From the NCBI GenBank assembly GCA_029936675.1, contig JAPYSB010000014.1, positions 7,802 to 48,863 on the forward strand: a stretch of DNA of 41,062 bases. Direction: 5' to 3'. The DNA is from Dehalococcoidia bacterium. Lineage in GTDB: Bacteria > Chloroflexota > Dehalococcoidia > Lucifugimonadales > UBA826. The number at the start of each line of letters is the position of its first letter. Within the stretch, counting starts at the first letter, position 1. The notes beneath the pieces are model-generated. The model made no database searches and had not been told where the DNA came from. It saw nothing but the letters and a program-made list of their open reading frames with translations. Positions 15,496-41,062 of this stretch are shown here, in pieces. A program made the translations under genes and the position numbers.

Positions 15496-16476
15496 CTAGT
15501 TTTTATAGGATGTATAAACATCCTCTGTAAGAGCACCAGGGTCGGGGAAAGGACTGTTGTCAGCGAATTCCACGGATTTGGCCACTGCGGTTTCACAATT
15601 CACTTCAATTCTTGCGAGTTCTTCTTCATTAGCAATTGAGCTGTCCAATATGTAATTCTTGAAGGTAAGGATGCAATCTCGATCCATGTAGTATTTCTGT
15701 TCTTCTTCTGATCTGTAAGTAAGGGGGTCATCATGACCGGCGTGGCCTAGATATCTGTAGGTTTGAGCTTCTATTAGGGTTGGACCTTCGCCGGCTCTTG
15801 CCCTGCCAATTGCCTCCTTGGCTACTTCAAACACATCCAATACTGACTGACCGTCGACTGTTACTCCTGGAATTGCATAGCCATCGGCTCTATTAGATAC
15901 GGACCCTCCCGCGACGGAATATTCGAAAGGAGTTGATTCGGCATATCGGTTGTTCTCACACACGAATATAACTGGAAGATCCCATATGCTCGCTAAGTTC
16001 ATCGATTCATGGAGGGCGCCTTGACTTGAAGCACCATCACCGAAGAAAACCACACTGACATTGTCAGTTCCTTTAACTTTGGCAGTTAAAGCGACTCCAG
16101 TGGCCACTGGGATGTTGGAACCGACTATTCCATTAGCTCCTAGCATTCCTTTAGTTATGTCGGCAATATGCATCGTGCCGCCCTTTCCTTTACCGGTTCC
16201 TGTAGATTTCCCCAATAGCTCCGCCATCATTTCATTTAGGTCCACACCTTTGGCAATGCAGTGATGGTGGCTTCTGTGAGTACCGAGTACAAAATCTTCA
16301 TCTCTGAGTTGAGCGCATACTCCTGTTGGGACTGCCTCTTGTCCAATAGAAGAATGTATTCCTCTTAATTTGCCAGCGTCTGCTTCACGCCTTGCCTGTT
16401 CTTCAAAACGTCGAATGGTGAACATCTTCTCGTACATCCATATTATGGACTCTCTGTTAATCTCATCATGACTCAT
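15496..16476 (-). CDS. ThDP-dependent dehydrogenase E1 alpha subunit (pyruvate/acetoin type)
   Basis: The 326-residue protein aligns with the E1 alpha chain of 2-oxoacid/acetoin dehydrogenases. Visible segments are IRRFEEQARREADAGKLRGIHSSIGQEAV, LGTHRSHHHCIAKG, GKGKGGTMHIAD and the ThDP motif FFGDGASSQGALHESMN (GDG 146-148) running to ENNRYAE (NN 175-176). YRYLGHAGHDDPLTYR near the C-terminus is the usual phosphorylation-loop region. E1 alpha works with a separate beta subunit plus E2 and E3; none is encoded in this window. A GAGG ribosome-binding site precedes the ATG. Its neighbour on the same strand is a CoA-transferase. Confidence 0.9.
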   Translation of the reverse strand: MSHDEINRESIIWMYEKMFTIRRFEEQARREADAGKLRGIHSSIGQEAVPTGVCAQLRDEDFVLGTHRSHHHCIAKGVDLNEMMAELLGKSTGTGKGKGGTMHIADITKGMLGANGIVGSNIPVATGVALTAKVKGTDNVSVVFFGDGASSQGALHESMNLASIWDLPVIFVCENNRYAESTPFEYSVAGGSVSNRADGYAIPGVTVDGQSVLDVFEVAKEAIGRARAGEGPTLIEAQTYRYLGHAGHDDPLTYRSEEEQKYYMDRDCILTFKNYILDSSIANEEELARIEVNCETAVAKSVEFADNSPFPDPGALTEDVYTSYKN

Positions 16477-16577: not shown

Positions 16578-17789
16578 TTAGCTTCGAGCAACCACGTTAT
16601 TGTCATCTAACTCTTTAATCTCATCTTCAGTGTATTCTGCGATATCCCTTAATATTTCTTCAGTATGCTGTCCGACAGTAGGTGTTGATCCCACCACCAT
16701 TTCTGTCCGGCTAAATTTAATCATTTTACCTGCAACATGTATCTTACCGGCGATCGGATCGGGAACTTCCATAAGAATCTCTCTTTCGTGTAGATGTGAT
16801 TCCTGTGCAGCCTGCGCCACACTATTTACCGGAGCGCAAGGAATACTAAAATCTGATAGATAGTCCACCACATCCTTCATTTTCCTTTCTGAAAACCAAA
16901 TAGATAGCACATCATTTATAGCCGCGCCATTCTCAGCTCTAGATGCTCGGGAAATAAACCTGTCGTCTATTAGCCACTCTGGTTTATCTATGGCCTCGCA
17001 CATTCTTTTCCATATGTTGTTATTTCCGGCTGCAATAATCACAAATCCATCTGAAGTCTCGTACATTCCTCCAAGCGGGTTATCTGCACCGCCATAGCTG
17101 GTGGACCTTTCAGTTATATATCCGTCACCTAGATAGGCGGATAGTGGTATTTCATTAACGGTGAATCCTGTATCAGCTAGTGATACGTCAATTGCTTGAC
17201 CTTCTCCTGAGATTTCCCTTTCCCACAGGGCGGCCAAGGCCCCGACGGTTGCATGTAGAGAGGTTATTCGATCAATTAGAGGGAAGTAAGTCTTGGTTGG
17301 AGGGTCTCCTTTGAGCCCAGTTAAGGACATCAGGCCGCCCATTGCTTGCCCGATAGGGTCAAAGCCAACTTTATCACGGTGTGGACCGTCCTGGCCGTAG
17401 GCAGAAGCGTTAATCATGATAATTTTCGGGTTAAGTTTTTTGAGAACATCATATCCGAATCCCATAATATCGATCGTTCCAGGTCGAAAATTTTGAAGGA
17501 AAACATCAGACTTTTTGACTAATCTCGTCAAAACCTCTTTTCCCTTGTCTGTTCGCAGATCTATGGCTAGACTTTTTTTACCGCTGTTGTACTGTACCCA
17601 ATAGGCACTCTGGCCTCTTACTGTTGGACCATTTTGTCTGCTTTCATCACCTTTGAGGGCTTCGACTTTAATAACCTCTGCACCCATTCGGGCGAACATG
17701 AGAGCGCACCTTGGGCCTGCTTGATAGCGCCCTAAATCCAGCATTCTAATGCCGGAAAGTGGCCCGCCATTATTATTTTCAGTCGCCAT
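16578..17789 (-). CDS. Family III CoA-transferase (CaiB/BaiF)
   Basis: This 403-residue protein is a standard family III CoA-transferase: LSGIRMLDLGRYQAGPRCALMFARMGAEVIKVE at the start, NSGKKSLAIDL, NFRPGTIDIMGFGYD, and PLIDRITSLHATVGALAALW with Asp173 in the catalytic position, followed by SGEGQAIDVS. The C-terminus has VGQHTEEIL. AAGGTGA serves as the ribosome-binding site. It lies 150 nt after the selenoprotein gene and 101 nt before E1 alpha, all on the minus strand, so the three may form one transcription unit. The acyl substrate is not determinable. Confidence 0.92.
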   Translation of the reverse strand: MATENNNGGPLSGIRMLDLGRYQAGPRCALMFARMGAEVIKVEALKGDESRQNGPTVRGQSAYWVQYNSGKKSLAIDLRTDKGKEVLTRLVKKSDVFLQNFRPGTIDIMGFGYDVLKKLNPKIIMINASAYGQDGPHRDKVGFDPIGQAMGGLMSLTGLKGDPPTKTYFPLIDRITSLHATVGALAALWEREISGEGQAIDVSLADTGFTVNEIPLSAYLGDGYITERSTSYGGADNPLGGMYETSDGFVIIAAGNNNIWKRMCEAIDKPEWLIDDRFISRASRAENGAAINDVLSIWFSERKMKDVVDYLSDFSIPCAPVNSVAQAAQESHLHEREILMEVPDPIAGKIHVAGKMIKFSRTEMVVGSTPTVGQHTEEILRDIAEYTEDEIKELDDNNVVARS

Positions 17790-17939: not shown

Positions 17940-19577
17940 TTACGGTAGGTACTGATCTATTCCGACAGTCTCTGCACTTGGCCCCGCTGGGAAAACAAGT
18001 GTTTTTGCCCTATCAGCACCAACCACCACAATATCTATTTTGCCTGGGTCGGCTAATAGCGGCATAGTAGTGTCCAATAATTCCTGTTCAGTTTTATCAC
18101 GAATCCACTTCCATTCTTCTTCCACCCTAGCATCTTTAACAGGCATGAATTGTATGAATTTACCAAGGCTTCCGTAGGCGTGCTCAAAGATAAAATTCTT
18201 TGCATCCTCTTTTGACCAACCTTCAGCTGCAACCGGTAATGCGACATCAGGGGGCATGAATATTAGCCGCTCCTGACTTTGCAAATGGCCAACCGAGCGG
18301 TTACCGAAAGTAATTCCATATGCCAAAGTCTTAAGTAATCCTTCGGCAGACGTATTACCTTGGTCTTGTACGTCTAGTTCTCCGTTGGTGGTGAAAATGG
18401 AAACGGCACTCTGGTCATCTAAGAAACCTTTGTCAGCCGCATATGAAGCCCACGGGCTGGCGCCTTCATTTTCGGCTAAACATGGCACAAACTTCCTTGT
18501 TGTACCTATAGTATCCATGTCCATCTTATGCGGGTACCACATGCCTATATTTTTTAAGCAAAGGTAAAAAGCTCTGCCAATTGTGATATTTATTTCATTT
18601 TCTTTTCCGGGCCCTAGTGCTGATCCTCCATTAAGGCCTACTTCCTTAGCGATAGGGCCATTCACAACCAACATCGGGGCCTGTGGGCTCGTAGACATCA
18701 GCATAGATTTGCCACCATGACCACCGGTTACCGATAGACATTTAACAGCTGCGATAATGATTGGCATGTGTTCGGGTTTTGCTCCTGCCATAGCCGAGTT
18801 GATCGCGATTTGTTCCACTGTAGCAATTCCGAACCCGGGGGGCATATCGCACACCACATCATCAGCATTCAAGTTAGTGCCCTCTATTAGTTTCTCAACA
18901 GCCTCTCTTGTGGGAGGCCAAACAGGCAGAGCGTCGGACCAATCACGGTCTGTAAATTCTCGATTCATCTTCAGTACTGCATCGTACCGATCTTCTCCCT
19001 CAAATCTTAAAATCGATTCAGCGCTTTCCGATTGGGCAGCCTGCGTTTCATCCGAGGTCAGACTGGCGATCAAATCGTCTATAGCATCTTCCGTTTGGGA
19101 TACACAAAGGTCGTCAGCCAGGTTTCTATAAATCCTAGGAACTATTACAAATTGGAGGTCAGGCATTCCAAACGTTCTGCTACTAGCCAAGGCGTCGTCC
19201 TCAAAACGTCCCGAAACTATTGGGACTGCGGGTTTCCCCATCTTTTCGACTTCTATCATGTCGTGGCACATCCACGAGGCGCAGGTTCCTCAATCAGCAG
19301 TGGCACCTATTACCAGGTCACATTCCTCCGCTGCCTGCTTTACGATAGCAGGAGGGGTTGGATAGTTACCGCCTGTGTAGAAATTAACAGCAACGTTGCT
19401 AAAGCGTTCCTGTATCATTTCACCAGCCCGGTTGAGAGCAAGGTCTCCTCCGTGAGTGCCACTCCATATTAGACCGATCGTCTTGCCGTCCAGAGAACTC
19501 GGCCGAGGATTCGGTTTGAGTATATTGATCATACCTCGCTGCTGAGCGACAGGATTAGAGACTTCCAAAAGATGCAT
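17940..19577 (-). CDS. UGSC-family selenoprotein, UGA-encoded selenocysteine at residue 96
   Basis: Two minus-strand frames, 19577-19290 and 19271-17940, are in the same phase and separated only by one TGA (19292-19290). Read as selenocysteine, this gives a 545-residue protein with LVIGATAD-U-G-T-C-ASWMCHD. That is the U-G-[ST]-C motif of the UGSC selenoprotein family described from marine metagenomes, and it resembles the UGTC site of glycine-reductase GrdB. The N-terminal 95 residues (GKTIGLIWSGTHGGD, then EECDLVIGATAD) and the following VEKMGKPAVPI form one continuous domain. A stem-loop lies right after the UGA. Residues from about 200 on form a second large domain of unknown function. 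The start has AGGAG 6 nt upstream. The reaction is unknown; a redox role is likely. No Sec machinery is encoded in the window. Confidence 0.88.
19261..19277 (-). promoter_or_regulatory. Candidate bacterial SECIS stem-loop
   Basis: On the minus strand TCGTGG-ATGTG-CCACGA forms a perfect 6-bp stem with a 5-nt G-containing loop. It starts 12 nt after the UGA, so 18 nt separate the UGA from the loop. This matches the placement of bacterial SECIS elements, which lie in the coding sequence just downstream of the UGA and bind SelB. Confidence 0.7.
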
Positions 19578-20000
19578 ATCTAACTCCTAATTATTTGATA
19601 AATGAAACTTTTCATTTCATTAGCTATTTTTACCACTATATTGAAACGACTTCAAATACTCCTTCTGCCTTGAAACAGGTCTATTTTTGCTGGGAGCCAT
19701 GACGGCGACACCGAAAATCTGACTAATAACTTGCAGAAAAAATTTCGGCACGACAAAGAATGAAAACTATTTTGGTATTTCAGGGGCTCCGCCTACCAAA
19801 TCCCTTCCTTGCTCCTTTGATACCCTAGGAATTTATGTTGCAATCAGATTTGAAAATCCCATTGGACACACCATTCAACGATTTTTTTTGTTTAAGGCAG
19901 CAGTTTATTTGTAAAACCAGATTGAATCTTTAGAATGAATTAGTAATTAACGTAGGATTGAAAATACATTTGCAATATTTGAAAAATAGGTGAAATAAAG
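19578..20000. other. Divergent intergenic region, selenoprotein and SMP-30-like genes
   Basis: No gene or RNA is recognised. The region includes the ribosome-binding site and an inverted repeat for the selenoprotein gene at one end, and AGGTGA before the ATG at 20001 at the other. The middle is AT-rich without evident structure. Confidence 0.5.
19600..19617. promoter_or_regulatory. Inverted repeat upstream of the selenoprotein gene
   Basis: AAATGAAA-CT-TTTCATTT has perfect 8-bp arms with a 2-nt centre. It lies 23 nt upstream of the selenoprotein start codon, a position suited to an operator. It is AT-rich, so chance is possible. Confidence 0.35.
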
Positions 20001-40705: not shown

Positions 40706-41062
40706 ATGCCGTATTCTCTCAGTCTTCTTATAAAGCCACTTGAATCTGTTCTCCTGACGAGCCTGCTTGCCTTACTGTTTGTGATTGCAGGATGTGGAGA
40801 ACCTGCGGTGGGACGGGCTGTAGGGGTGGATTCATCTGAACCTCCCTCACAAGAATTAGCCTCAGTCCCCTTACCAGGAGTTTTGACTCCTCCTTCTACC
40901 CCAGAAATTCAACCCCCAGCAACTTCAGAGCTGAAACCAGCTCCAACTTCCAAACTTGACCCAACCAAGACTGCCGTGACCATTCTGCCTACCAAGGTGC
41001 CTGCTATACCAGAACCCACCAAGGTGCCTGCTACACCAGAACCCACCAAGGTGCCTGCTACA
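40706..41062 (+). CDS. Lipoprotein with Pro/Thr-rich repeats, 3' partial
   Basis: The frame runs from the ATG at 40706 to the window edge, 119 codons without a stop. The first 30 residues are a lipoprotein signal: hydrophobic LTSLLALLFVIAGC with Cys30 as the lipidation site. The rest is Pro, Thr, Ser and Glu-rich (PPSTPEIQPPATSELKP) and ends in repeats of PTKVPATPE. Such low-complexity stretches usually act as a spacer between the membrane and an outer domain, which would lie beyond the window. The YHYH lipoprotein has a similar linker. Confidence 0.8.
   Translation, partial: MPYSLSLLIKPLESVLLTSLLALLFVIAGCGEPAVGRAVGVDSSEPPSQELASVPLPGVLTPPSTPEIQPPATSELKPAPTSKLDPTKTAVTILPTKVPAIPEPTKVPATPEPTKVPAT
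40988..41062 (+). repeat. 27-bp tandem coding repeats, continuing past the window
   Basis: Units of 27 bp start at 40988, 41015 and 41042, each encoding PTKVPA(I/T)PE; the third is cut by the edge. They are almost identical, suggesting recent expansion. Confidence 0.9.

Follow-up and report, generated by a model that had tools for sequence, protein, structure and literature searches.

A probable UGSC-family selenoprotein of a Chloroflexota bacterium, with a linked partner domain and a GrdB-like selenocysteine site

The window analysed here is a stretch of 41,062 nucleotides from a Dehalococcoidia bacterium (Chloroflexota; SAR202-like to judge from the named relatives closest to it), and carries on its minus strand a complete gene (17940..19577) of 545 codons that ends in TAA and is interrupted by a single in-frame TGA, codon 96, at 19290..19292. 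A Shine-Dalgarno-like AGGAG, read directly from the sequence, lies just 5' of its ATG (19584..19588, minus strand). An ordinary listing of open reading frames splits the gene into two same-phase minus-strand frames of 95 residues (19290-19577) and 443 residues (17940-19271), just as an earlier note on this DNA had predicted; when the TGA is read as selenocysteine (Sec, U) the two join into one protein of 545 residues, in which the sole recoded codon, U96, stands in the context ...GATAD-U-GTC-ASW.... The recoded translation likewise bears out the placing of the TGA at the first position of a U-G-T-C motif, whose Cys99 is the probable resolving cysteine. Since the other genes of the window terminate in TGA, TAA or TAG, 4 of the 23 ORFs checked being closed by TGA in the ordinary way, TGA is still a stop codon in this DNA. 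We consider it probable that the product of the gene is one UGSC-family selenoprotein of 545 residues; the earlier description of it as "hidden" holds for automated gene calling only and not for the family, which is already catalogued and curated.

Downstream, at a distance of 150 bp, is a gene of CoA-transferase family III (16578..17789, minus strand; PF02515, E 2e-111), and further on a gene resembling the E1 alpha subunit of thiamine-diphosphate dehydrogenases (15496..16476, minus strand; PF00676, E 1.2e-90), beside which no E1 beta gene is recognised in the ORF list of the window. The CoA-transferase gene adjoins the fused gene in a close relative too (L052) and is a possible operon partner of the selenoprotein gene, while the E1 alpha-like gene is a possible pathway partner. 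Relatives of the gene, too, have thiamine-diphosphate, CoA-transferase and solute-binding-protein genes close by, and these, with the two same-strand genes of the window, suggest the catabolism of small carboxylates. When neighbouring gene families were pooled, no universal neighbour emerged apart from the UGSC and partner domains described below; as the neighbours differ between lineages, they fix no single pathway.

The N-terminal part of the protein, residues 8-174 (19056..19556, minus strand), matches the Pfam UGSC profile PF24696 (E 1.3e-28; 100.7 bits against a cut-off of 25), which confirms the family membership proposed in the earlier note. The equivalog model NF041046 of NCBIfam, with which the fused gene was scanned, scores 90.3 bits, below its cut-off of 125, and we therefore place the gene in a divergent UGSC subgroup. 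UGSC-containing selenoproteins were described in 2008 from ocean metagenomes, with 255 Sec and 21 Cys forms (PMC2398784). Our protein shares with the family as modelled in PF24696 and NF041046 the domain at 8-174 and a Sec that opens the motif U-G-[ST]-C and is seldom replaced by Cys; it differs in having UGTC rather than UGSC and in an extra domain of 350 residues. An AlphaFold2 model of the whole protein (pLDDT 91.5, pTM 0.92) predicts for the UGSC domain a parallel alpha/beta fold of repeated beta-alpha units, in which Sec96 begins the helix that follows a strand at residues 88-92. The domain's closest neighbours among solved structures have flavodoxin-like, B12-binding and similar folds (Z up to 10.4, rmsd 2.8, 126 aligned residues); these folds are common and say nothing of UGSC function. 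In the 2008 study Zhang and Gladyshev considered the domain likely to be thioredoxin-like (PMC2398784), whereas the predicted model and its list of structural candidates speak against thioredoxin and in favour of a flavodoxin-like fold. Searches of solved structures by sequence with either domain gave chance-level matches only. A tree built from 127 UGSC domains groups the fused gene with SAR202, Entotheonella and Nitrospinota in a clade that has support and does not include the unfused copy of the same genome; on this tree the fusion label requires 5 changes as against 41.5 in shuffles.

Just downstream of the UGA lies a hairpin (TCGTGG-ATGTG-CCACGA; 19260..19278, minus strand) that is a candidate bacterial SECIS element, conserved and covarying in relatives. 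Counting from the first base of the UGA, it occupies the stretch 14-32 nt downstream and consists of 6 pairs and a 5-nt loop, the seventh, outer pair of its relatives being a C-C mismatch in this gene. Columns 15-21 of the alignment pair with columns 27-33, and 89% of cells pair across 26 distinct hairpin sequences; double-sided changes are seen in 8 sequences at pair 21-27 and in 4 at pair 18-30, and the covariation score was reached by 0 of 500 shuffles. One portion of the hairpin encodes conserved residues, and there the protein sequence acts as a constraint, but several of the paired changes sit at synonymous third positions and so the protein sequence does not explain all of them. Over 47-60 nt, the sequence of this one gene folds no more stably than its shuffled versions; the putative SECIS is argued for by conservation and covariation, and not by single-sequence stability. 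In the haloarchaeon Natrialba asiatica, which has TGC at the aligned codon and is a Cys form, pairing read by eye is still possible at the same place, so that this relative is no negative control for the hairpin. We regard the hairpin as a candidate for an element that would help Sec decoding at UGA 96.

With one in-frame stop in a metagenome assembly, it can always be argued that the TGA arose by sequencing error or nonsense mutation, the gene then being a pseudogene or the codon one for Cys or Trp; this explanation has no other support, and the distribution of the codon tells heavily against it. The PF24696 profile recovered 26 matches in 12 of the 16 genomes of the taxonomic family, all 26 with exactly one in-frame TGA; the same holds for 85 of the 90 matches obtained across 400 Chloroflexota genomes; when relatives from named genomes are aligned, 45 of the 46 rows show TGA at this codon; and U stands at the motif in every inspected locus of the phylum that gives a UGSC match (L132-L160). 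The two checks suggested in the earlier note, for U or C in homologues and for read error, thus came out in favour of the selenoprotein, the site being occupied by U, or by Cys in Natrialba asiatica, and the same TGA recurring in independent assemblies. Differences from relatives are mostly at third codon positions, and because this bias is found both before and after the UGA, both sides must be translated and under protein selection. In view of the conserved UGA and of these coding-type substitutions on both its flanks, to which the full Sec machinery of the genome may be added, error and pseudogene are for practical purposes ruled out and their residual probability is negligible. It is also very improbable that the 443-residue frame is made separately from an internal start, to give two products: its ORF does open with an ATG at 19271, but according to the predicted model a protein begun there would lack the UGSC domain up to a point just past the active site, inside the helix after Sec96, and the frame upstream of the UGA is conserved to an equal degree. 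As to which residue is inserted, the reading frame alone cannot tell, and the alternatives to Sec are another amino acid, brought in by a suppressor tRNA or by Trp recoding, or low-level readthrough. However, the genome to which the window belongs (2.19 Mb, 96% complete) encodes the whole Sec apparatus that the earlier note proposed to look for, namely a specific tRNA-Sec (65.5 bits, above cut-off, and also found by ARAGORN), SelA, SelB and a SelD that carries an in-frame TGA of its own. Together with the ordinary use of TGA as a stop in the window, the Cys at the aligned residue of the archaeal relative and the SECIS-like hairpin downstream, this makes a reading as any other amino acid extremely improbable, and to judge from the sequence the genome's own machinery almost certainly reads UGA 96 as selenocysteine. 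The co-occurrence of SelB with UGSC by itself says little, as most Chloroflexota (307 of 400 genomes) have SelB. A few rare distant relatives (loci L193, L194 and L192) have at the Sec position Thr, Met, or Cys without a resolving Cys, and may have lost or altered their activity.

The C-terminal domain, residues about 197-545 (17943..18989, minus strand), has no Pfam or NCBIfam model: scans of it and of 55 relatives yielded chance matches only, in agreement with the earlier statement that no function could be named for the second domain. Cys366, Glu369, Glu371 and Trp376 make up a conserved cluster within it. Scanning a single genome for each species brought up at least 555 relatives, of which the best 80 were examined as loci; these contain 93 copies of the domain, and their hosts include Chloroflexota, Pseudomonadota, Actinomycetota, Rokuibacteriota, Poribacteria, Tectimicrobiota and an archaeon, among others. 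In these best-80 loci 75 of the 93 copies are linked to UGSC, 46 by fusion and 29 as genes within 1.5 kb, in both gene orders; the other 18 stand alone and are mostly from Poribacteria. Since Poribacteria keep the partner with no UGSC nearby, it may also have a Sec-independent role. In most of the poribacterial loci of this kind (L099, L102, L103, L106, L109-L112, L114, L122 and L124) genes for CBS-domain-like proteins and 2-oxoacid:ferredoxin oxidoreductase follow downstream of the partner domain. The genome of the window has a second, unfused pair, consisting of a partner gene and then a UGSC gene with its own TGA (L009:3935-5599; C3:113934-115598), with the gene for tRNA-Sec some 4 kb away. 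An AlphaFold2 model of the C-terminal domain alone has a pLDDT of 91.2 and finds no good structural match among the Foldseek candidates, a list whose missing folds are not thereby argued against. Its top entry is the class I fumarase 7xky (E 1.7e-4), which we rejected as the superposition is poor (TM 0.2, Z about 4) and the class I fumarase alpha domain (PF05681) reaches only Prob 1.2% in hhalign. A fusion of UGSC to an unnamed conserved domain, "Unknown_1", was reported from ocean samples in 2008 (PMC2398784, Fig. S1A), and our C-terminal domain is very probably the same; the part of that report concerning Unknown_1 assigns it to a few aquatic organisms, whereas the relatives recovered here number at least 555 and come from several phyla.

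In 10 loci the partner has at its N-terminus a domain marked by a CxTC and a VPTL or VPAL motif, and in each of them the next gene downstream is UGSC. These fusions of a thioredoxin-like domain to the partner occur in Pseudonocardia (Actinomycetota), several Proteobacteria and one Chloroflexota genome; the N-termini of four of them gave only sub-threshold matches, nearly all to models of the thioredoxin superfamily. In a Henriciella metagenome-assembled genome (L127:1942-9816) SelA, SelB, tRNA-Sec, the thioredoxin-partner fusion, UGSC and an Ndh-SelD lie in a row, forming a compact Sec island around UGSC.

GrdB is the substrate-activating subunit of glycine reductase, and the resemblance of the UGTC motif to its Sec site, pointed out in the earlier note, is upheld by profile comparison. 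With GrdB sequences taken from Chloroflexota loci that have their own in-frame TGA, hhalign matches UGSC to GrdB at Prob 94.3 and E 1.1e-7 and brings the Sec columns of the two into register, as against Prob 0.2% and 0.1% for unrelated control comparisons, and a GrdB of the same phylum has the very motif UGTC. The similarity spans only about 80 residues around the Sec site, and among the Pfam matches of the protein at E 0.001 there is none to GRDB (PF07355). By these profile alignments the UGSC domain appears to be homologous, though divergent, to the region of GrdB that carries the Sec; beyond that region it differs from GrdB and from PrdB, the selenoprotein of D-proline reductase, the C-terminal partner domain having no similarity to GrdB, and no Grd or Prd partner genes were recognised beside the fused gene. 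Two stretches elsewhere in the genome of the window (G000:C44:13800-14231 and C49:55692-56117) match the C-terminal part of PF07355 and are possible PrdB-like selenoproteins.

UGSC and its partner domain are in our judgement likely to work together as a redox enzyme, in the likeliest case a GrdB-like reductase that acts on a small substrate and is itself reduced by thioredoxin; that the reaction is specifically a reductive cleavage of the GrdB kind is plausible, though we would not call it probable. The two domains would form one enzyme in which the partner domain holds a small organic substrate, and the selenolate of Sec96, at the N-terminus of the helix after the beta strand, would attack this substrate and aid a reductive bond cleavage or a similar two-electron reduction. 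The reaction might end with a Sec96-Cys99 selenenylsulfide, which thioredoxin would reset, in some lineages by way of the thioredoxin-like domain built into the partner protein. The product might be a carboxylate or 2-oxo acid that enters catabolism, as the CoA-transferase and thiamine-diphosphate neighbours suggest. A different arrangement, in which Sec96 and Cys99 are a redox switch or peroxide-scavenging site that regulates a hydratase- or hydrolase-like catabolic enzyme at the C-terminus, would accommodate the first rank of the fumarase in Foldseek, the thioredoxin-like fusions, which would suit redox control, and the poribacterial partner domains with no UGSC nearby. We think it unlikely, as the fumarase match is poor in superposition and absent at the profile level, the UGSC domain resembles the catalytic Sec site of GrdB, and the near-universal retention of Sec instead of Cys is more to be expected of a catalytic than of a regulatory site. 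Returning to the reductase, we tentatively propose, with less assurance than for the GrdB-like cleavage itself, that UGSC, its partner and the thioredoxin-like domain represent one widespread selenium-dependent reductase system that cleaves small organic substrates reductively, a distant relative of glycine reductase that does without GrdA and GrdC, with the expanded paralogues of some Chloroflexota acting on different substrates.

UGSC is among the commonest selenoprotein families of ocean metagenomes, yet reviews of 2022 and 2026 list it with no function (PMC9312934, PMC13188914), and we found in them no substrate or activity for any UGSC protein. UGSC selenoproteins and the UGSC/Unknown_1 fusion are already known from the 2008 report (PMC2398784); what is added here is the linkage to the partner domain, the thioredoxin-like fusions, the clustering with Sec machinery, the alignment with GrdB and the predicted flavodoxin-like fold. 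These links make UGSC a testable enzyme, for which a partner, a reductant and an active site can be named. The partner family is easily overlooked, because gene calling that ends at the UGA splits such genes, as in the ORF listing of this window, and because the family has no Pfam or NCBIfam model. A paralogue expansion is seen in the Chloroflexi isolate NC_groundwater_644_Ag_B-0.1um_60_123, which has more than 10 UGSC/partner copies (loci L071-L074, L078, L083 and L087), several of them near genes for SBP_bac_5 solute-binding proteins. The window itself also contains two tandem repeats: a 78-bp unit at 406-689 (3.6 copies, 95% identical), which codes for 26-residue repeats in a 489-residue ORF (121-1590) upstream of ABC transporter-like genes, and a 27-bp unit at 40991-41062 (2.7 copies, 97% match), which runs off the end of the window.
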